Made by a program: the position numbers and the translations under genes
The notes under the pieces: generated by a model
What the model saw: the letters and a program-made list of their open reading frames with translations, nothing else
The model's database searches: none
What the model was told of the DNA's origin: nothing
DNA from: Apophysomyces variabilis
Taxonomy: Eukaryota; Mucoromycota; Mucoromycetes; Mucorales; Mucoraceae
Reading direction: 5' to 3'
NCBI GenBank assembly: GCA_002749535.1
Contig: MZZL01000399.1
Span: 1 to 64,000 of the forward strand
Length of the DNA: 64,000 bases
Shown here: piece by piece, positions 36,234 through 51,193 of the stretch
Position numbering within the stretch: position 1 is the stretch's first letter
Layout: every line of letters starts with the position of its first letter

Positions 36234-37417
36234 CTATTGGAGTAGGAGCAATGAGATTAATCCAGCTAGGAACCAGGTAGAATAGGCTATCGTATTACGC
36301 GTGGATAGATTGTTGGACAAGGTGACGGGTTGACCAACACTGTATTCGATATTTTTGAAATAAGTGTAGGTATCGATTGGTGTAGCATAGTTCGGCGTTC
36401 CTCCGCCGAAAAAGGTCGAAAACATCATGCTTGATACAGCGATGGCGTTGGATGTACGATAGCGTAATGCGTTTTGGTTAATACGGAGACTGCCATCCTG
36501 CCAAACTTGAAGGATACCGTTGGATTGTGAGGGGTCATTTACTTTGATATAGATTTCCAATGTCGTCCATTGCTTCTTTTGAAAGTTGATAAGCCCTCGT
36601 GAAATAGTAATTCCGTAGTCGCTGTTGCACATCACCAATGGCTGTTTACAAAGATTGTCGTCCGTAGGAACATACGCATAAGCCTCACCAGCTCCTAATG
36701 GTTCACCATGCACAAACAAAAAAGGTCAATGAACATCGTTTGGACCTGCATCGCATTAAACCTCTACCTGCTTCACGCCACATGAGTCGAACCGAAAAGC
36801 AGTTGGAGCCTGACGCCTGGTCACCACCTGAACAGCCCACTCCGGGAGGACCTGATGCAGCCAAGAAAAAGAAAAGAAAAAGGGATCAGTCCCGTTTTCT
36901 TTCCTTCATGCCGGAACAATGCAGTTGGACATGCGGAACGGTTTTCCGTTGTCTTCTTCTTACCTCCAAAAATACCAGGTAACTTGCCGCCTTGGACCCA
37001 CGGAAAGTTCTCGTCAAATGCCAAGTCATATCGTAACAGAGCGCTATCGTACGATTGATTGCCGAAAGGTGTAGAATAGAACTCTGTGCCACCCGTACTT
37101 CCTTTGCCGTTTTTTGTACCCGAAGGAGAATAAGAGCCACCGGCATACAAGACTTTCATGACAGTAGAAGAGGCATTGTTGGTCACAGGATCGGGTACGA
37201 ACGATACGTCGGAATCGCCATAGAAATAACCGATTGGGTTATCCCAGTCTGTGGCCACGAAACTAGTAACTGGGCCGCTACCGGACAAGCCGGACGAGGG
37301 CATTGGTGCTGTCCATGTTTGTTTTAAGCCCAATTGTTGTGCTCTTGAAGATAATGGTTGATTTTGAGCCAGCGCCGTAGAGGCGAATGCGAGCACGACA
37401 CCACTCAGCAGTCTCAT
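36234..37417 (-). CDS. Secreted PL14-type polysaccharide lyase, probably GPI-anchored
   Basis: Minus-strand exons 36964-37417, 36768-36851 and 36234-36694 total 999 nt, or 332 aa. The signal peptide is MRLLSGVVLAFASTALA. The core has LRYDLAFDENFPWVQGGKLP, GIFGG, a CSGGD...NCFSVRLMWRE segment, then GAGEAYAYVP and LEIYIKVNDPSQSNGILQVW. This fits the fungal polysaccharide lyase 14 (alginate/glucuronan lyase-like) beta-jelly-roll family. The C-terminus is hydrophobic (STWFLAGLISLLLLQ), consistent with a GPI-anchor signal after a Ser/Asn-rich stretch. The substrate is not predictable; uronic-acid polymers of its own or foreign cell walls are plausible, since Mucoromycota walls contain polyuronides. 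Confidence 0.72.
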
Positions 37418-39037
37418 GAAAAGAGCAAAAGTGGAAAAAGAGAGAGAGAGAGAAGAAAAAGGGTAAATTTGTGTACCTGAAAATTTACAACAAATCTATA
37501 AATACCAGGTCAATGGAGAATAAAAAAAAGTTCCGCGTTGTCATAGGCAACATCATGAACAAAGCGATTTGTAAATTAAGGATGTGACACTTGAAAGTCA
37601 AGAACAATTCCATTCAGTCGCCGAGGAAAAAGCTTTCTCTGCAGATTTCTCTCAAAAAGTCGATCATTGTTTATCACCCTTGTTTTATCGTCCAATCTAC
37701 GTGCGAAATCTATGATAGAGTTAATCGACCTGCATCGTACTGTTTATGGAAAACGTCACTAGGCGGCATATCTCCCTTTTTCCTCTCCTTGCTGGCATGC
37801 TTAAACACATAATGACATCATTAAAACCTTTACACTATGGATTTTCATTACCGTTTCCCCAGGGTATGGAAGCGATGGAAATAGCTGGGACCTCTTACTC
37901 CGATTTGCCTATTCCACATCGAGGTGTGACAGTCTGGCCGAGACCCGCCAATCGTGTGTCAGATAGGTAGCATGTTCCTATCGATTTGGTGCCCATTATT
38001 TCGGGATTCTCAGAATTGCAAAGTATAACATATACTTACGAAACAAAAGCAAAGCACGCAATGGAGGATGATGCTATATTTCTTCTCTGTATCAATAGAT
38101 CTCTGCATCAGTAATAGAAAAGAAAACGGGATATCCTGATTATTTATAAATATCGTTTTTAGACGTGTACATAGCCATGGTTAAAGTCATGATCACAGAA
38201 ATTGATCGATATCCATTATGGTTATAAATATAGCGGCACGACTGAATCGGAAATATACCAATGGGTGGAAACGAAAGGGTTTTGCAAGACCTCATTGATG
38301 GAATATTAACTGCATGAATTTCTTTTTTCTCTATTTCCTCCTTACAGATTCAAGCAATTTTGAATAGCCGGAAACCATTTCCATGTTTGCGATTGTGAAT
38401 TACAGAGTTAAAAGAAATTGTCACAGGATCATCCAACATGTTTGATGCGTATGGCAAGCAGCGCTTCTATCTTGCATTCTATTTTAGATTTAGTTACGCA
38501 GTCGTCTCTAGTTGAGTGATATGCTCTTGAAAATAGAATATCTCTCGTACTTAGTAGAAGAAAAAAGAGTTGCTACTTTTCCACATCTTGCGAGTCAATG
38601 TGTCACCCATCCCCAGAGATATTGGTACGCCAATGCGGTAAGGACCCGAAACAGCAATAAAAAAGACCTTAGTATTCAATATTATACTTAGTGACGTCCA
38701 TCATATCAATGACGGCATAAGACCCACATTAAGAAGACAAAAAAAGACGTTGCAATTAATTATAAGAAAAGAAAGTGTACAAAGAGAAGAAACTGCTACA
38801 AAAAATATACAATGGACATACTTAACTATGTATCCTAGACTGGTACAAGAAGAAACAAGCTGCAAAATAAAACACAAGATTCCGGTTTTCATATAACAGA
38901 AAAAGGAAAGAGAGATAGAAAGAAGTGGAAACTGGATAGGGAGAGGGGTGGGGACAAGCTAAAAAGTAAAAAGGAAGGCATACGGTTTTTGTGGCAAGCA
39001 AGACAAAGCAATGGCATGGCAAAGAAAAAAAGCCCCA
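37418..39037. other. Gene-free region between lyase and bZIP genes
   Basis: 1.6 kb. There is a GA tract at 37438-37453 near the lyase start. The rest is AT-rich with no supportable ORF. It probably contains the lyase promoter and the bZIP 3' UTR. Confidence 0.5.
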
Positions 39038-43337: not shown

Positions 43338-45260
43338 TTACCAACGACCTCCGCGCTTTACTTTCTTGAATTTTCTGAGCTTCTTCTTATCCCAGTCGTC
43401 GTCATCGTCGTCGTCCCAATCGTCATCATCGTCATCGTCATCGTCGTCCCAGTCATCGTCATCGTCGTCATCCCAATCATCATCATCGTCATCATCATCA
43501 CCACGCTTCACTTTCTTGGATTTTTTTACTTTCTTGGATTTTCTGAGCTTTTTCTTATCCCAGTCATCATCATCGTCGTCATCGTCATCATCATCCCAAT
43601 CATCATCGTCATCGTCGTCATCCCAATCATCATCATCGTCATCGTCATCACCACGCTTTACTTTCTTGGACTTTTTTACTTTCTTCGATTTTCTGAGCTT
43701 CTTCTTATCCCAGTCATCATCATCGTCGTCATCATCCCAATCATCATCATCGTCATCATCATCACCTCGCTTTACTTTCTTGGATTTTTTTACTTTCTTG
43801 GATTTTCTGAGCTTTTTCTTATCCCAGTCATCATCATCGTCGTCATCATCCCAATCATCATCGTCATCGTCGTCATCCCAATCATCATCATCGTCATCGT
43901 CATCACCACGCTTTACTTTCTTGGACTTTTTTACTTTCTTCGATTTTCTGAGCTTCTTCTTATCCCAGTCATCATCATCGTCGTCATCGTCATCATCATC
44001 CCAATCATCATCGTCATCGTCGTCATCCCAATCATCATCATCGTCATCGTCATCACCACGCTTTACTTTCTTGGACTTTTTTACTTTCTTCGATTTTCTG
44101 AGCTTCTTCTTATCCCAGTCATCATCATCGTCGTCATCGTCATCATCATCCCAATCATCATCGTCATCGTCGTCATCCCAATCATCATCATCATCATCAT
44201 CATCACCTCGCTTTACTTTCTTGGATTTTTTTACTTTCTTGGATTTTCTGAGCTTTTTCTTATCCCAGTCATCATCATCGTCGTCATCATCCCAATCATC
44301 ATCGTCATCGTCGTCATCCCAATCATCATCATCATCATCATCATCACCTCGCTTTACTTTCTTGGATTTTTTTACTTTCTTGGATTTTCTGAGCTTTTTC
44401 TTATCCCAGTCATCATCATCGTCGTCATCATCCCAATCATCATCGTCGTCGTCGTCATCCCAATCATCATCATCGTCGTCATCGTCATCACCACGCTTTA
44501 CTTTCTTGGACTTTTTTACTTTCTTCGATTTTCTGAGCTTCTTCTTATCCCAGTCATCATCATCGTCGTCATCGTCATCATCATCCCAATCGTCATCGTC
44601 GTCGTCGTCATCCCAATCATCATCATCATCGTCATCATCATCACCACGCTTTACTTTCTTGGACTTTTTTACTTTCTTGGATTTTCTGAGCTTCTTCTTA
44701 TCCCAGTCATCATCGTCGTCATCATCATCCCAATCATCATCGTCGTCGTCGTCATCCCAATCATCATCATCGTCGTCATCGTCATCACCACGCTTTACTT
44801 TCTTGGCTTTTTTTACTTTCTTGGATTTTCTGAGTTTCTTCTTATCCCAGTCATCATCGTCATCATCATCATCATCATCCCAATCATCATCGTCGTCCCA
44901 ATCATCATCATCGTCATCATCACCACGCTTCACTTTCTTGGATTTCTTGGATTTCTTGTCGCACCACCAATGATGATAACGATCACAATCGTCACCATAA
45001 CCACCACCATAGCCTTGGGCAGGGTTGACAGAGGCCTCATCACGGCGAGCCGCCGCAGCATAGTTACTAGAACGTTAGATTAACATGCGTCAATGGTCCG
45101 ATACTGAATGATGTTTTCCTTACCTTGCTGCTGATTTTATGCTTTTATATTTAGGTTCGGCCGTAACCCCCTTCTCAATTGGGACAGGGTGGGCACTGGT
45201 AACCACCATGGAAATGGCAGTCAAGCCGACGCTGAAAAGGACGGACCAAGTGAGCTTCAT
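43338..45260 (-). CDS. Secreted acidic/basic repeat protein with Lys-Arg spacers (Kex2-processed-repeat-like)
   Basis: Minus-strand exons 45124-45260 and 43338-45066 total 1866 nt, or 621 aa. The signal peptide (MKLTWSVLFSVGLTAISMVV, cleavage near TSA|HPVP) is followed by a short pro-region and one phase-2 intron of 57 nt. After GYGGGYGDDC and HHWWC come 11 tandem units of 36-48 aa. Each has Asp runs of 7-11 residues broken by single Trp, then WDKKKLRKSKKVKKSKKVKR. Every unit ends in Lys-Arg followed by Gly, the layout of fungal secreted repeat precursors cut by the Golgi protease Kex2. The opposite charges within each unit suggest self-assembly, metal binding or wall attachment, but the function is unknown. 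TATAAATA lies about 86 bp upstream of the start codon. Confidence 0.85.
43375..44960. repeat. Coding tandem repeat (11 Asp-Trp / Lys units)
   Basis: About 110-145 bp units of ATC/GTC-rich (Asp on the minus strand) trinucleotide runs alternate with a nearly invariant 70-bp Lys/Arg-coding spacer. Unit length varies by multiples of 3 bp and by loss of one Asp-Trp block (for example the shorter unit near 43700-43765). This is consistent with replication slippage and unequal exchange while the frame is kept. Confidence 0.9.
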
Positions 45261-45345
45261 ATTAATGCTTTTTTCGTAGGAATTTGCCCAAGGATCAACA
45301 ACACAAAAAATTTGATGTATTTTCCAATGCAGAAAATCTTCGTCT

Positions 45346-45353
45346 TATTTATA
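45346..45353 (-). promoter_or_regulatory. TATA box of the acidic repeat protein gene
   Basis: TATAAATA on the minus strand, about 86 bp upstream of the ATG at 45260. The same octamer is found about 93 bp upstream of the related secreted gene at 47703. Confidence 0.55.
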
Positions 45354-47024
45354 GCTTAGCAATTGACTAGGGTGTCGAGCTTATTCAAGGGAAAATGATC
45401 GCCAATGAACGTCATTCTTTTTGACTCGAACGTTCCATCAGTTGATTAACTAGCCATGCTCCACAGCATGCTCCAAAGAATTGGCTTGGATTCAACATAC
45501 TGTTTCACGGATTTTTTCTCAATGATCTACGCCCAGAAAGCTGTCATAGTCGGCATATGTGGGAAATCACTGAAACCGTCAATCGTAGTGGGAGATGACT
45601 AGGCTCCGAACCATGTCCAGATTCCGCGTCTTCGATTGTTCCATTTATGCGAAAAAAAAGGCAGAAAAGCTGGCATTTATCCCGATACCGACAGCGGTAT
45701 GGAGCAGATTTCCGTAATGGCCGATAATTTCATACAGACCTGGATATGTTCCTTTCCCTCCCTGTAGGATATTGTCCTATCAGATGTTTAACTCATAAGG
45801 ATACCTTTAGCAAAGGCAAGCATGACTCGATGAAGCGTTAATTCTTTATCACCTTTAATGGAGCGATGATTTATGTCGGATTTAAACCCATTTTGGCTTC
45901 GATATTGCAGGAAACTCATGTCTGGTAAGCTATCGGCAGGATTTTTCTTACCCGCATCAATGAACGAAGGTTTCACATAGACCTATAATTCCTGGGAACA
46001 AAAAAAAATAGGTTTCAAAGAAAATTTAGAGCAAGAATTTCAAGGAAGGACACAGCAAAGCATACAAAAGGACGACATTAATCAAACAATGGGTGGCAGA
46101 ATCGAGTTAATGCTTTAAAATTTGCATAGAATTGCTCTCTCATTTATAGTATTCCTTCAAATGATTTCAACCTGGAAAAGACGTCCTAAAGGTTGGAATT
46201 CGAAGGCTCAAGGAAACTGAAATGTTCCCGTACGATGAACACTTCTGTGTTTATGGGTTAGGATGCATAGAATCGTTCAAATTTTTGAGAGGCCGGAAAA
46301 CACAGTACAGAGGAATCTATTGCGATAATACCGTACTCCTGCAGGGTAGGTGAAAGCGCGGCATGATTCCGTTAGACCGTTTGCAGATAAACTTCAATAA
46401 AAACTGCCGACTTTTCGAGATTCTATACAGTATTGTTATTGACGGGTTGGCGTGGGTATAAAAGATTCTAAATCATAGAAAATTGGAATACTCTGATATT
46501 ATTCAACCCAAAAGAAGGATTTTTAGCTGTTTTGGGTACCGTATAAACTGTGTGGACGATATAATGGAGATTGACGATCAACTTCCCGAACTTTCCTTTA
46601 GACCGGTTCAATCACTATGTCAAGTCTGTTTTACGTTCGGAAAGATACATGTTACATTATCATTAGCCTTTCATTAAGATTGAGTTCCTCCAAACTCAAT
46701 GTCTACGATGACCTGCTCTTACAAATTGGGTTTTGCTGTTTGTCATTCAAGAAGCAATAAAACAAATGAATTTCGATAGCACACCTATTAAGATAGGATA
46801 TACCTTTCATAAACAACACAATGACTGGATAGCATTCTAAGGAAAGATTATTGCTAACACCATGATACTGCATTTATTACGTTTGCCTATATACTGTAAA
46901 GAAAGGCGGAAAGGGAAAACAAAGCACAGGCACTATATATTCGCTTTTCTACTTCGGTTGATCCTGATGCATTAGACAGGTAAAGATCATGGCTCAAATG
47001 AAGAAGTGATGATATATATAGGTA
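45354..47024. other. Intergenic region between two secreted-protein genes
   Basis: 1.7 kb containing the upstream promoter of the acidic repeat gene and the 3' flank of the next gene. No ORF above about 64 codons is credible and no repeat structure was recognised. Confidence 0.5.
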
Positions 47025-47703
47025 TTAAGCTTGCGGAGAGCTTGCATTTCCCGGATCGGCAGTACTCTGGTCTGTGCCAGCATTCATGCCATCGTTCATA
47101 CCGTCGCCCGTACCATCGCCCATGTCGTCACCCGTACCATCGCCCATACCATCACCGGAGCCAGCTTCAGTTCCCGGCTGAGTCGCAGTGTTTTCTTCGT
47201 TCATGTTATCGCTAGCCTGCTTGTCATATCCTTTGCCTTCGTAGCCATCGTCCTCGTCCTCTTTCCAATCGTCCCCTTTGCCACCTTTGTGCCATCCGCC
47301 GCCCTTGTGCCATCCACCACCTTTGTGCCATCCACCGCCTTTGTGCCATCCGCCACCTTTTCCACCATGCCAACCATGACAGCCCTTGCCTTTGCCTTTG
47401 CCATAGCCGTCGTCATCATCGTCATCATCATCATCATCATCGTCATAGTCGTCGCCCTTGCCATGGTAACCCCCGTGGCGATAGCCATAGCCAGCCGTTT
47501 CAAAATCGGATCTATTTTCGTTTTGTGTTTGTTTAGAAAAAAAATTATGCAGATCAAGGCTTTTTGATTTGCCTTTTTTGTACTTCTGGCTGATGTCTCT
47601 CTGTAGGAAGTTTTCCCTCTGCTGTCACTGGCTGGGCTATAGCCATTGCCATGGAAACAGCGGTGATACCAAGGGTAAATGCAATCGACAAGGTAAATTT
47701 CAT
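47025..47703 (-). CDS. Secreted Gly/Trp/His/Lys- and Asp-rich repeat protein (GC-AG intron)
   Basis: Minus-strand exons 47573-47703 and 47025-47511 total 618 nt, or 205 aa. The true frame of exon 2 lacks an early Met and is hidden behind overlapping frames on both strands. The signal peptide is MKFTLSIAFTLGITAVSMAM, with cleavage near AIA|QPV. The intron starts with GC (AAG|GCAAAT) and ends AAAATAG, and splicing makes a Lys-Arg. Exon 2 encodes YGYRHGGYHGKGDDY and ten Asp. Four copies of GGGWHK follow (18-bp units, about 47282-47353), then an acidic stretch and Asp-Gly-Met/Thr-Gly repeats. His/Trp/Gly repeats may bind metal (Cu, Zn) or wall glycans; this is speculative. The leader exon resembles those of the genes at 43338-45260 and 50795-51193. 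Confidence 0.8.
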
Positions 47704-47795
47704 CGTGAATTTTCGGCTTTTTTTTTTGGCTGTTAATCAAATGAAAAGAAAGGAATATCGACTCTGATGTGCCAAAACAACAAGCGACATCCATT

Positions 47796-47803
47796 TATTT
47801 ATA
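47796..47803 (-). promoter_or_regulatory. TATA box of the Gly/His-rich secreted protein gene
   Basis: TATAAATA on the minus strand, about 93 bp upstream of the ATG at 47703. It is identical in sequence and similar in position to the element before the acidic repeat gene. Confidence 0.55.
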
Positions 47804-48034
47804 ACTTTTAACGAGATGGAACCAATACATAGTAGTCGCAGTCATCTTTATTCACCGAGCCAAGTTTTATCTTATTCTTAACTAGCTTTGTTATCACCGA
47901 GAAACAAGCAAAGGGGGATGAGTTGCAAAGCAGAAACCAAAAAAGAACCATCATAATTGTATTCAGTCAATGTTTCTTTTGTGTGTGCTTGCATGCGTGT
48001 CTGATCCAAGCATTTGCTTCTTTTTTTTTGTTTT

Positions 48035-50178
48035 TTATTTTTGGCTCAATAGTTTGATAGCGCCGTTGGGTAAAAATTCACCAATCATACCAGTGGTATA
48101 CCAGCCATCTGAATCAACGACTTGGGCTGTTGCTTCTGGATCCTTCCAATACCCAGCAAAGACATTGTTACCTCGCACCCAGATCTCACCACGGGGATTG
48201 GGCTGGTCTTCGCTCGAATATTGACGCTCGGGCAAATCCAATAGTTTCACTTCATTGCAGGCGAGAGGAGCACCAAAAGCGGCTGGATCTGCACCATAAT
48301 CAAAACACATCGACACTGTAGCTGTGCCAGTGGTTTCGGTTTGATTAAACGCCTTGAGGATTTGAGCACCCAACACCACGCGGAGAAACGACGCAAGGTC
48401 ATCTGCTTCGAAACCTTCCAGATCGAAACATGATTAGGACTGAACTGACTTTTTCCCTCTCTCTCTAATTCCCCCTCCCCAGAAAAGCTGAAATGGAATG
48501 TTTACCATTTTCGATATAAGCAATACGTAAATGACCACCAAATAGTTTCTGACGGATGTCTCTGAAAACCAGCATATCATACTTTGTATCGTTCACCAGC
48601 CGACCTTCAGTCAAATGATGCTGTTTCTTATCATAGCCACGTCGGAAAAGAAACGAGTTTCCATATTGTGACTCCACTCTACCCTTCACCTGTTCAAAGA
48701 ATGGTTTTACACTGCCAAACACCGTCGGTTTTGCCTCGGCTACAGTGGCTAACACACTGGAGAGATCAATGTTGGCCTCCTCATCTATTTCATGACCAAT
48801 GGCCACAGAGGCACCAATGGTGCAAAAAGCGCCGGTCAACACGTAGCCAAACACATGATCAATAGGATAAGTGTGCATCAGCCTGTCCTTGGCAGTGATC
48901 TTATGAGGCTGGGTGAGGATAGCAGTGTAGATAAGGAGATAGCTTGCAATACTGGACAACAAATTCTTGTGCGTCAACATGACACCTTGTTTCCCTTTGA
49001 AGTAAATGCTAGCCATATCTTCCGGCACAGGACGGACAGATTCTACAGACGCCAGGTGGCCCTTGTCTTGCACTTCCGTCAAACTCACCAATTGAATCCC
49101 GACTTTCTCCGCGGCTTGTTTTTGCTCGCTGGAACTGGCGCCGAAAGTGACAATGTATTTCAGAGCTGTTGTTTCATCTACCAGAGAGAGGGTACGATCC
49201 AAAAGCGCTTGGTCCACCAAAAGAAGTTTCAACGATGTGTTTCGCAGAATGTGAGACACATGAGAGGAAGAGGAATGAGCGCCGATAGGGATGGTAACAA
49301 GACCATGACGATGACATGCTGAACAAATAGACGTTTTAGAGGGTCAAAAACAACCCAACATGGAACCCTTCCGGTTTCTTTTTTTTATTTTTTGCCTTAC
49401 CTATCTGAGTCAAAACCGTATCTAAGGAAGTTTAGGAGAAGAAATAAATCAATCAGGAAACGGGTATATTTTTCAACAATGGCACTCTAGGATAGGGTTC
49501 TTACCAGGCGAATTGGATGCATAAATGCCCACAAAGGAAGATTCTGTACCCGATCGAGGTTCTAGCCCGCCGAGATTACATAGTCCGGCGTAAATGTGTT
49601 CACATCTACTACCGATTGTGTCTATACAAATAATTCATCCATTGGGTTTAGTTTACCGATGCTTCTCTTTCTCTCTATTGTTTTCTCTTTTGTTGTTTAC
49701 CATAGTTATGCTATCAGAGAGGGGAAATGAAAGGACTTAGTCTATTCATACGTAATTTCAATAGAATAGACACACTTACCCATTCATAACCATTCTTCGT
49801 GTGGGCCCCAACAAAAGGGGTCGAACCGTGCTTGGCAAAGACATCGTCTTGGAACAAGTCGTAGAGTGTACGGACGTTGCGGTCAAAGGTAGCCAATAAA
49901 GGAGACCCAAACGTAGATGCTCGAGACCGATAACTAGACCAGTCGACAAGTTATTTCTCCAAGTTCAAGTTTTGCTAATGGCAAAGAGAAGGAAACGGTA
50001 TGCTCGGAGCTTACATGGCGCTTTCACCTGGATGTCGTAATGGCGACACGTTGGCTTGATTGTTTAACAGTAAAGGATGAATGTCAGCTTCCTTGGAGTT
50101 TTTAATAGACAATAACGTTGCAGCGCCGAATATCGATGCCAAAAGGGCGTAACTCAAAGTATCCAATTCAATACTCAT
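48035..50178 (-). CDS. Long-chain acyl-CoA synthetase-like protein, degenerate and C-terminally truncated
   Basis: Minus-strand exons: 50015-50178, 49780-49933, 49701-49710 (10 nt), 49505-49621, 49401-49421 (21 nt), 48506-49318 and 48035-48414. They total 1659 nt, or 552 aa. The N-terminus has a membrane segment (TLSYALLASIFGAATLLSI), then typical ACSL elements: NVRTLYDLFQ, FVGIYASNSP, HTYPIDHVFGYVLTGAF, FNQTETTG, FGAPLACNEVKLLDLPE and EIWVRGNNVFAGYWKDPE. The ATP-binding P-loop (TSGTTG-PKGVMLTH in active enzymes) is reduced to YFKGKQGVMLTHKN. The conserved TGDIGE is TGMIGE. The protein stops about 110-130 residues early, without the C-terminal lid and its catalytic Lys. The gene is otherwise intact and spliced, so it may be a pseudoenzyme rather than a pseudogene. 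Confidence 0.8.
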
Positions 50179-50794
50179 TGTGTTAAAAAAAAAAAGAAAG
50201 GGCGGTGCAGAGAGAAAAAGAGAACACCGCCAAATCCTTCGTCCCTTTTTCTCATCTTCCCGTCTAGTGACACGCTTTTTTACGTCCATAATGCTAACCT
50301 CTCTGCTAATCTAACAGCTGAAACTGACTTGCCATAAAAAATAAGGTACAGTCAGAAAGACTAAAACACCAGTAAGCAAAACGTACATACAGTTATCGCT
50401 TTTTCCTACTCAGTTTGAAGCGAATAAAGGATATAATTTGTTCGGTAATAGCTGGCTTTGCTGAGTGGCACTGCTCTTTCCCGTAGTACCAGTTCATGCT
50501 GATTGAAATCTGCACTGTTCCTAGCTCTACTTGCTTTGTGTTAAATATAACTTTTTATGCCCTTCTATGCTATGAATGGCCTAATGCTTCGTACTATATC
50601 CAATCATGTTCCGAATAGTTCCTTATCCGTTTTGAAGTCAAACAAAAGACGTGTTTATTTGCTATAGCATAAACGCAAAGAAAAAAAATAGTAGCAAAAG
50701 AAAAGTACGTTCGTGGAATGGTTAAGGAACAATCCGTTTCTCAACTGTCATTGATAGGATAGAGAGAGGGAAAAGAATTCCAGCGATAAACCTT
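50179..50794. other. Intergenic region upstream of the acyl-CoA-synthetase-like gene
   Basis: 616 bp separating two minus-strand genes; promoter of the synthetase-like gene and 3' flank of the Pro-rich gene. No gene, repeat or RNA structure recognised. Confidence 0.5.
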
Positions 50795-51193
50795 TCAGTA
50801 GGGTCGACCTCGTCCTGGTGGGAAAGGTGGATATGGAGGAAATGGAGGGAAGGGCGGGAAAGGTGCAGGAGGAATAGGAGGGGGATAGTAAATAGGCGGT
50901 CTTGGATAATGAATAGGTCTTATAGGCGAGATAGGAATATACGGAACCATCTGTTGTTCCTCGAACAAAGCATCACTACGGAAATAAAAAAAAAAGGAAT
51001 CAACAGGGAATAGTGCAATGGCTCGGTTATTTTTCTTTTGAAGTTGTACGTACCTGTTAATGGCAGGCTTCCTATCTGCTTCCTGATGTTGAACATTTAA
51101 TTCGGTTGGCTTTGGATCAACTGGAGCTGCCAAGGTCTGCCATAAAGTAAACGTAAGGAGGAAGAGCCCAAAAATGGAACGAAGTAGCTTCAT
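50795..51193 (-). CDS. Small secreted proline-rich protein
   Basis: Minus-strand exons 51054-51193 and 50795-50975 total 321 nt, or 106 aa. A signal peptide (MKLLRSIFGLFLLTFTLWQT, cleavage near LAA|PVD) and a hydrophilic pro-segment occupy exon 1. Exon 2 starts DALFEEQQMVPYIPISP and becomes almost pure Pro/Phe/Tyr repeats (YYPPPIPPAPFPPFPPFPP), ending in GRGRPY. The composition suggests an extended polyproline wall or extracellular protein, possibly O-glycosylated or cross-linked through Tyr. Intron position and phase match the other two secreted genes on this strand. A TTTAAATA-like element lies about 70-80 bp upstream of the ATG. Confidence 0.8.
   Translation of the reverse strand: MKLLRSIFGLFLLTFTLWQTLAAPVDPKPTELNVQHQEADRKPAINRYVQLQKKNNRAIALFPVDSFFFYFRSDALFEEQQMVPYIPISPIRPIHYPRPPIYYPPPIPPAPFPPFPPFPPYPPFPPGRGRPY

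Follow-up and report, generated by a model that had tools for sequence, protein, structure and literature searches.

Three neighbouring minus-strand genes of Apophysomyces variabilis were predicted to encode secreted proteins with very different low-complexity sequences, and they raise the question of whether they form one family and what their products become. The original prediction saw in them either a secretion cassette, in which promoter, signal peptide and splice site had been joined to different repeat modules, or a family whose second exon evolves extremely fast. The genes, here called g1, g2 and g3, lie in a window of 64,000 nucleotides, the start of a 647-kb contig in a genome of 38.7 Mb. 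The Anp1-type mannosyltransferase encoded there shares 91% identity, across 77% of the query, with a protein of Apophysomyces ossiformis, ahead of twelve further matches at 60-71%, of which the named ones belong to Mucorales.

Gene models

The three predicted open reading frames were confirmed on the minus strand, with the following features (lengths of spliced proteins for g1 and g2 refer to the originally proposed splice sites).

43338-45260, minus strand: g1, spliced protein of 621 aa
45124..45260, minus strand: g1 exon 1, predicted signal peptide and pro-segment, 45 codons plus AG, homologous to g2 exon 1
45067..45123, minus strand: g1 intron, 57 nt, phase 2, AAG/GTAAGG...TTCTAG, best frame-compatible pair
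43338..45066, minus strand: g1 exon 2, repeat array and short tail GGRW, with RR at residues 53-54
43353..44924, minus strand: g1 array, 12 VKRG sites enclosing 11 repeats of 38-51 aa
47025-47703, minus strand: g2, spliced protein of 205 aa
47573..47703, minus strand: g2 exon 1, predicted signal peptide and pro-segment, 43 codons plus AG
47512..47572, minus strand: g2 putative GC-AG intron, 61 nt, whose splicing restores VQKR/S, a dibasic Kex2-type site
47025..47511, minus strand: g2 exon 2, an Asp run followed by repeats of GGGWHK and then of GDGM/GDGT
50795-51193, minus strand: g3, 106 aa spliced or 132 aa unspliced
50976..51053, minus strand: g3 putative intron, 78 nt, with good splice signals and open in frame

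The predicted g1 gene model is firm. Its splice pair was clearly the best among seven frame-compatible donor/acceptor pairs, and without splicing the frame runs into an immediate stop. The intron of g2 requires a GC donor (AAG/GCAAAT) in place of GT, and this GC-AG pair topped nine frame-compatible pairs narrowly (3 vs 2 on a crude scale). In g3, a single 132-codon frame runs uninterrupted across the proposed intron, the signals of which are good (CAG/GTACGT, 15 of 17 pyrimidines, CGTAG); therefore the frame does not require the intron and does not fix its phase. Introns this short are normal for Apophysomyces, since published introns average ~77 bp, in genomes given in a section of PMC5604411 as 35.8-39.4 Mb with ~42% GC and ~6 introns per gene.

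With the originally chosen splice sites, exon 1 of g1, g2 and g3 does comprise 45, 43 and 46 whole codons plus AG and ends in phase 2, and in each of the genes a Pro-Val comes after the probable cleavage region. The shared phase and split AG/N codon, although present, say little about kinship, because any phase-2 intron with the usual AG/GT donor gives AG/N. If phases were equally common, three genes would be expected to agree in about 1 case in 9.

Relationships among the leader exons

The leaders of g1 and g2 gave a local alignment score of 74, which was reached by 0 of 5000 shuffles (maximum 65) in which the hydrophobic and hydrophilic parts were shuffled separately. In contrast, the g1-g3 and g2-g3 scores (29 and 30; 5000 shuffles per pair) had p values of 0.14 each, so that g3 is indistinguishable from an unrelated signal peptide. 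The comparison set of other signal-peptide-like ORF starts numbered 51 (54 found in 228 kb of this genome, minus g1-g3) and was crude, with chance ORFs among them; the highest scores with it were 31 for g1, 35 for g2 and 29 for g3. Among 1271 null pairs one scored 174, and the rest scored at most 47. The exception is a genuine-looking paralogous pair of two neighbouring similar ORF starts on another contig (L025:3209 and L025:7385), which we take to be perhaps transporters. Under crude signal-peptide rules (hydropathy, cleavage) g1 passed both the stricter and the looser version and g2 the looser only.

Searches of the 38.7-Mb genome gave the same grouping. The g1 leader matched itself and g2 (E 0.017), the g2 leader matched itself and g1 (E 0.012), an intermediate leader query matched g1 and g2 and no third leader, and the g3 leader matched itself and nothing else; one or two candidates were scored in each search, from which remote members could escape. 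The two leaders, which lie 2.4 kb apart, are therefore each other's sole reported non-self matches in the genome. Judged by their leader sequences, the first exons of g1 and g2 are paralogous, and no relation of g3 to either is detectable. A family built on exon 1, as originally envisaged, was thus recovered, but with exactly two members, and the three-gene version was not borne out.

A DNA pattern for the leader core TA(I/V/M)SM(A/V) gave 17 matches (control 3), namely g1, g2 and 15 others. Nine of the 15 were read: in eight that were translated, no signal peptide was seen by eye in the pattern's frame, and the ninth (L034:720-740) resembles by eye the repeat in contigs L040, L045 and L047. 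The remaining six carry the same 17 letters as one of the matches read, C27 on contig L046. The pattern thus also matches apparent repeated elements on contigs L040, L045, L047, L034 and L046, which are unrelated to g1 and g2.

Searches beyond this genome added no relatives. In a database of 5.8 billion proteins, which includes at least one protein of Apophysomyces ossiformis, whole g2 gave 902 candidates and residues 1-90 of g1 gave 76, none at E ≤ 10. This would mean either that there is no annotated homologue or that homologues are hidden by length limits and low complexity. Pfam profiles found nothing above cut-off in g2, g3 or the first 139 residues of g1. Matches of g1 to NOA36 and Cwf_Cwc_15 below the cut-off (E 0.006-0.007) were taken as composition.

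Upstream DNA and the second exons

The original prediction also noted the same motif at about -90 in two of the genes, and this is correct.

45346..45353, minus strand: TATAAATA, 93 bp upstream of the g1 ATG
47796..47803, minus strand: TATAAATA, 100 bp upstream of the g2 ATG

It occurs seven times in the whole window, both strands counted. Over 400 bp upstream, the likeness between genes was not above that of shuffles (p 0.26 for g1-g2, 0.89 for g1-g3 and 0.33 for g2-g3), and a TATA box alone was common to the genes, on which the promoter idea was rejected. The DNA of exon 1 was likewise no more alike than shuffles (p 0.12 for g1-g2, 0.05, at the margin, for g1-g3, and 0.73 for g2-g3; 300 shuffles each). 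With a protein identity of 36%, the g1 and g2 leaders are thus themselves widely diverged. Where exon 2 begins, the residues of g1 and g2 (GYG...GGY...GDD) are not significantly alike (p 0.24-0.31), so that the paralogy of the two genes rests on exon 1.

When exon 2 of each gene was searched against the genome, each found itself only, apart from one chance-level match of g1 (E = 3.04). Runs of at least nine GAY codons were, however, confined to this pair: 228 kb of the genome contain ten, all in g1 and g2. Both genes write their long Asp runs in mixed GAT and GAC codons. For the second exons we therefore favour, short of proof, descent with rapid low-complexity divergence over the joining of unrelated modules.

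How do these results bear on a cassette, that is, on a unit of promoter, leader and splice site that was joined to unrelated repeat modules through phase-2 introns in all three genes? The common phase and similar exon-1 length with the chosen sites, the homologous g1 and g2 leaders followed by exon 2 starts that are not significantly alike, and the marginal g1-g3 value for exon-1 DNA are all what it would produce. In a cassette family, however, leader and flanking DNA should be better conserved than the cargo at the DNA level, and they were not (p 0.26 upstream and 0.12 in exon 1 for g1-g2). The leader of g3 matches nothing, no third leader was reported in the genome, the upstream regions are dissimilar, and both g1 and g2 carry long Asp runs, which are absent from the rest of the 228 kb. 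We consider a three-gene cassette very improbable. A family with a very fast second exon, the other suggestion made originally, fits better for g1 and g2, with g3 standing outside it.

The repeat array of g1

Downstream of exon 1, g1 continues with RR/DEA, a Gly/Tyr/His/Trp stretch that contains two Cys, and then the VKRG sites, which are spaced 45, 48, 51, 48, 47, 50, 50, 47, 38, 50 and 50 residues apart. Within each repeat, Asp runs broken by Trp are followed by a Lys-rich block, and each repeat ends in Lys-Arg. A typical repeat reads G, Asp run, W, eight Asp, W, Asp run, WD, and then KKKLRKSKKVKKSKKVKR. The 38-residue repeat is without one Asp block, while the last one has gained an Asp block relative to the others and its Lys block is shorter. 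None is of double length, and hence no repeat has lost its KR. The spacing of the blocks is regular, with 20 of the 33 Asp runs exactly eight residues long and 13 Trp-Trp steps of nine, and the net charge after the signal peptide is about -141.

A tandem array of this kind could be a satellite or a product of slippage that merely chances to be open, and long frames are indeed open across it on the plus strand too. The differences among the repeats point the other way. In a frame-blind DNA alignment of all 11 repeats, differing base pairs fell mainly at third positions of the minus-strand frame (482, compared to 72 at second and 51 at first positions), as did variable columns (29, 7 and 6, respectively, of 51 each). 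All length changes are of whole codons, and none breaks the frame. A protein-guided alignment of the 11 repeats gave pS 0.425 and pN 0.011, a ratio of 0.026 (0.024 without the last repeat). Two pairs of repeats of equal length differed by five and two silent changes, respectively, and by no replacement. Three blocks picked by their amino-acid pattern gave 17 variable columns at third, one at first and none at second positions; this choice of blocks favours a pN near zero, and the 11-repeat alignment, which is the fair test, leaves the conclusion unchanged. When the four 50-residue repeats were compared without gaps, pN was 0.108, an effect of the shifted register of the last repeat.

The Asp runs mix GAT and GAC codons, with a mean longest stretch of the same codon of 3.7, compared to 3.95 for random placement, and eight equal codons are present in 2 of the 33 runs. 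Such near-random mixing bears little mark of recent codon slippage. As the array is also in frame with a spliced, predicted signal peptide, a satellite or slippage origin without selection on the protein is hardly credible. The substitution pattern thus shows either strong protein-level constraint on the minus-strand frame or homogenisation of that frame while constraint of this kind acted; the array is, by the same reasoning, real coding sequence, and the open frames on the plus strand are by-products.

Predicted processing by Kex2

The rule for KEX2-processed repeat proteins (KEPs), in the part of PMC7329392 that defines them, calls for a signal peptide together with three or more tandem repeats, each of 8-100 residues, between KR, KK, RK or RR pairs. 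The repeats of g1 (11, of 38-51 aa, with 12 VKRG sites) conform to the repeat part of this rule as worded, and its signal peptide passed crude rules only. A kexin is encoded in the genome, where three PF01483 matches were found at two loci; at one of these, Peptidase_S8 and P domains lie in neighbouring frames. The Kex2 motif described in a passage of PMC8528282 prefers an aliphatic residue, Ala included, at P4. This fits VQKR of g2 and AARR at the pro-site of g1, whereas the repeat site of g1, KVKR, has Lys at P4. In g2, VQKR falls at residues 41-44 if the narrowly preferred GC-AG intron is real. Each repeat of g1 also contains KK and RK pairs, and its products are therefore not predictable with certainty. 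From the null result in the protein database it follows that no orthologue was found to show conservation of the KR sites. Literature searches found nothing on Apophysomyces with Kex2 or on polyampholyte secreted fungal aspartic acid repeats, and papers retrieved on aspartate-rich secreted fungal repeats with tryptophan were unrelated by title.

The reading that we somewhat prefer, from sequence features throughout, is that g1 and g2 are diverged neighbouring paralogues that encode secreted preproproteins processed by Kex2, with g1 a KEP, g2 a pro-protein and g3 a separate Pro-rich secreted protein nearby. Both g1 and g2 would then begin with a signal peptide, followed by a short hydrophilic pro-segment, the two lying mostly in exon 1; next would come a dibasic site, and then a low-complexity mature part in exon 2. 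Kexin in the Golgi would most likely remove the pro-segment, at VQKR/S in g2 and RR/DEA in g1, and would most likely also cut g1 at the Lys-Arg that ends every repeat. Such cutting would release 11 near-identical peptides of 38-51 residues, each made up of a poly-Asp block interrupted by Trp and a block rich in Lys. For both proteins, splicing, secretion and cleavage are predictions of this kind.

It is possible, though we doubt it, that g1 is secreted and stays whole. It would then act as a charge-block polyampholyte, with Asp blocks, Lys blocks and Trp stickers, and condense into material of the wall, the spore coat or the extracellular matrix, while g2 would be a companion metal-binding Gly/His/Asp protein. 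The regular spacing of Asp and Trp, the large negative net charge and the strong constraint on the repeats would all suit such a role. Set against it are the kexin in the genome and the KR-G boundaries, which set off every one of the 11 repeats, even the divergent ones at the two ends.

The preferred reading, a KEP and a pro-protein both cut by Kex2, leaves several roles for the g1 peptides. Our guess is that they bind metal ions or coat the hyphal surface; they may also form a matrix at the hyphal surface or in the wall, or act against microbes through a Lys block that the Asp block shields until cleavage. The functions of KEPs in general are described in part of PMC9769878 as largely unknown. 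A more far-reaching version, which we regard as a long shot, is that g1 and g2 go back to a single secreted prepro gene, in which the cargo exon was exchanged or built anew by way of the phase-2 intron, and that one member of this lineage-restricted pair secretes zwitterionic peptides of poly-Asp/Trp and Lys blocks, made by Kex2 from a KEP. We found no description of a peptide class of this kind, the published KEP tables lying outside the comparison.

g3 and the neighbourhood

Some 3 kb upstream of g2, g3 probably encodes a secreted Pro/Phe/Tyr-rich protein, to judge from its translation. One ORF between g2 and g3 lies outside the family.

48465..49343, minus strand: ORF with an AMP-binding domain, profile positions 64-271 of 384

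This ORF may be a fragment or have further exons. Between g1 and g2 (45300-47000, minus strand) there are short open stretches that by eye are possible gene remains. Elsewhere in the window (36234-37495, minus strand), contiguous parts of the profile for polysaccharide lyase 14 are matched by two frames that lie side by side, the upstream frame with a signal-peptide-like start, MRLLSGVVLAFASTALA.

Discussion

The locus holds two paralogues, not three, and no demonstrated cassette, and g1 would be an unusual example of the known KEP class. KEPs as outlined in parts of two papers (Le Marquer et al. 2019, PMC6339444; Umemura 2020, PMC7329392) share with g1 the three or more dibasic-bounded tandem repeats of 8-100 aa and have the signal peptide that crude rules predict for g1. 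Unlike the KEPs described there, g1 combines poly-Asp and Trp with a Lys block; its cleavage is predicted, and the published tables lie outside this comparison. Passages in the same papers give a mean of 9.15 KEPs per strain for Mucoromycota and note larger repeats (PMC7329392, PMC6339444), and present KEP repeats as diverse, most types being found in a single genus (PMC7329392). That a genus should have an orphan KEP is therefore expected.

In its order of parts, g2 resembles the Kex2-processed pro-domain (K2PP) proteins of PMC8528282, as far as they are set out in the portion of that paper drawn on here: it has a predicted signal peptide, a short putative pro-segment, a VQKR site if the GC-AG intron is real, and a mature part. 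It differs from them in its Gly/His/Trp/Asp low-complexity mature part, and nothing points to an action of g2 on a host. The Rep1-type hyphal-surface proteins of Ustilago maydis, named in the same portion (PMC8528282), are repetitive secreted precursors that Kex2 cuts into surface peptides, much as is predicted for g1; g1 is likened to them by description, not by sequence. Its peptides are extremely charged, and a water-repelling, amyloid-like coat is therefore not expected of them.

The separation of leader and variable mature part into different exons links g1 and g2 to conotoxins and frog dermaseptins. In these leader-conserved, cargo-variable systems the leader has its own exon and the variable mature part another. 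Unlike them, g1 and g2 are two genes only, with leaders that are 36% identical and leader DNA that is unlike.

The role of KEPs in early-diverging fungi is said, in a passage of PMC6339444, to remain to be elucidated. For that question g1 provides, from an early-diverging fungus, a candidate KEP that has clear limits, is supported by selection and shows an extreme pattern of charge. The pair g1 and g2 indicates, further, that two genes can keep a common secretion leader after their low-complexity mature proteins have lost recognisable similarity, and ordinary homology searches will therefore readily overlook such gene pairs. Should the peptides of g1 indeed be released, they would offer a simple natural model of peptides built from acidic and basic blocks.
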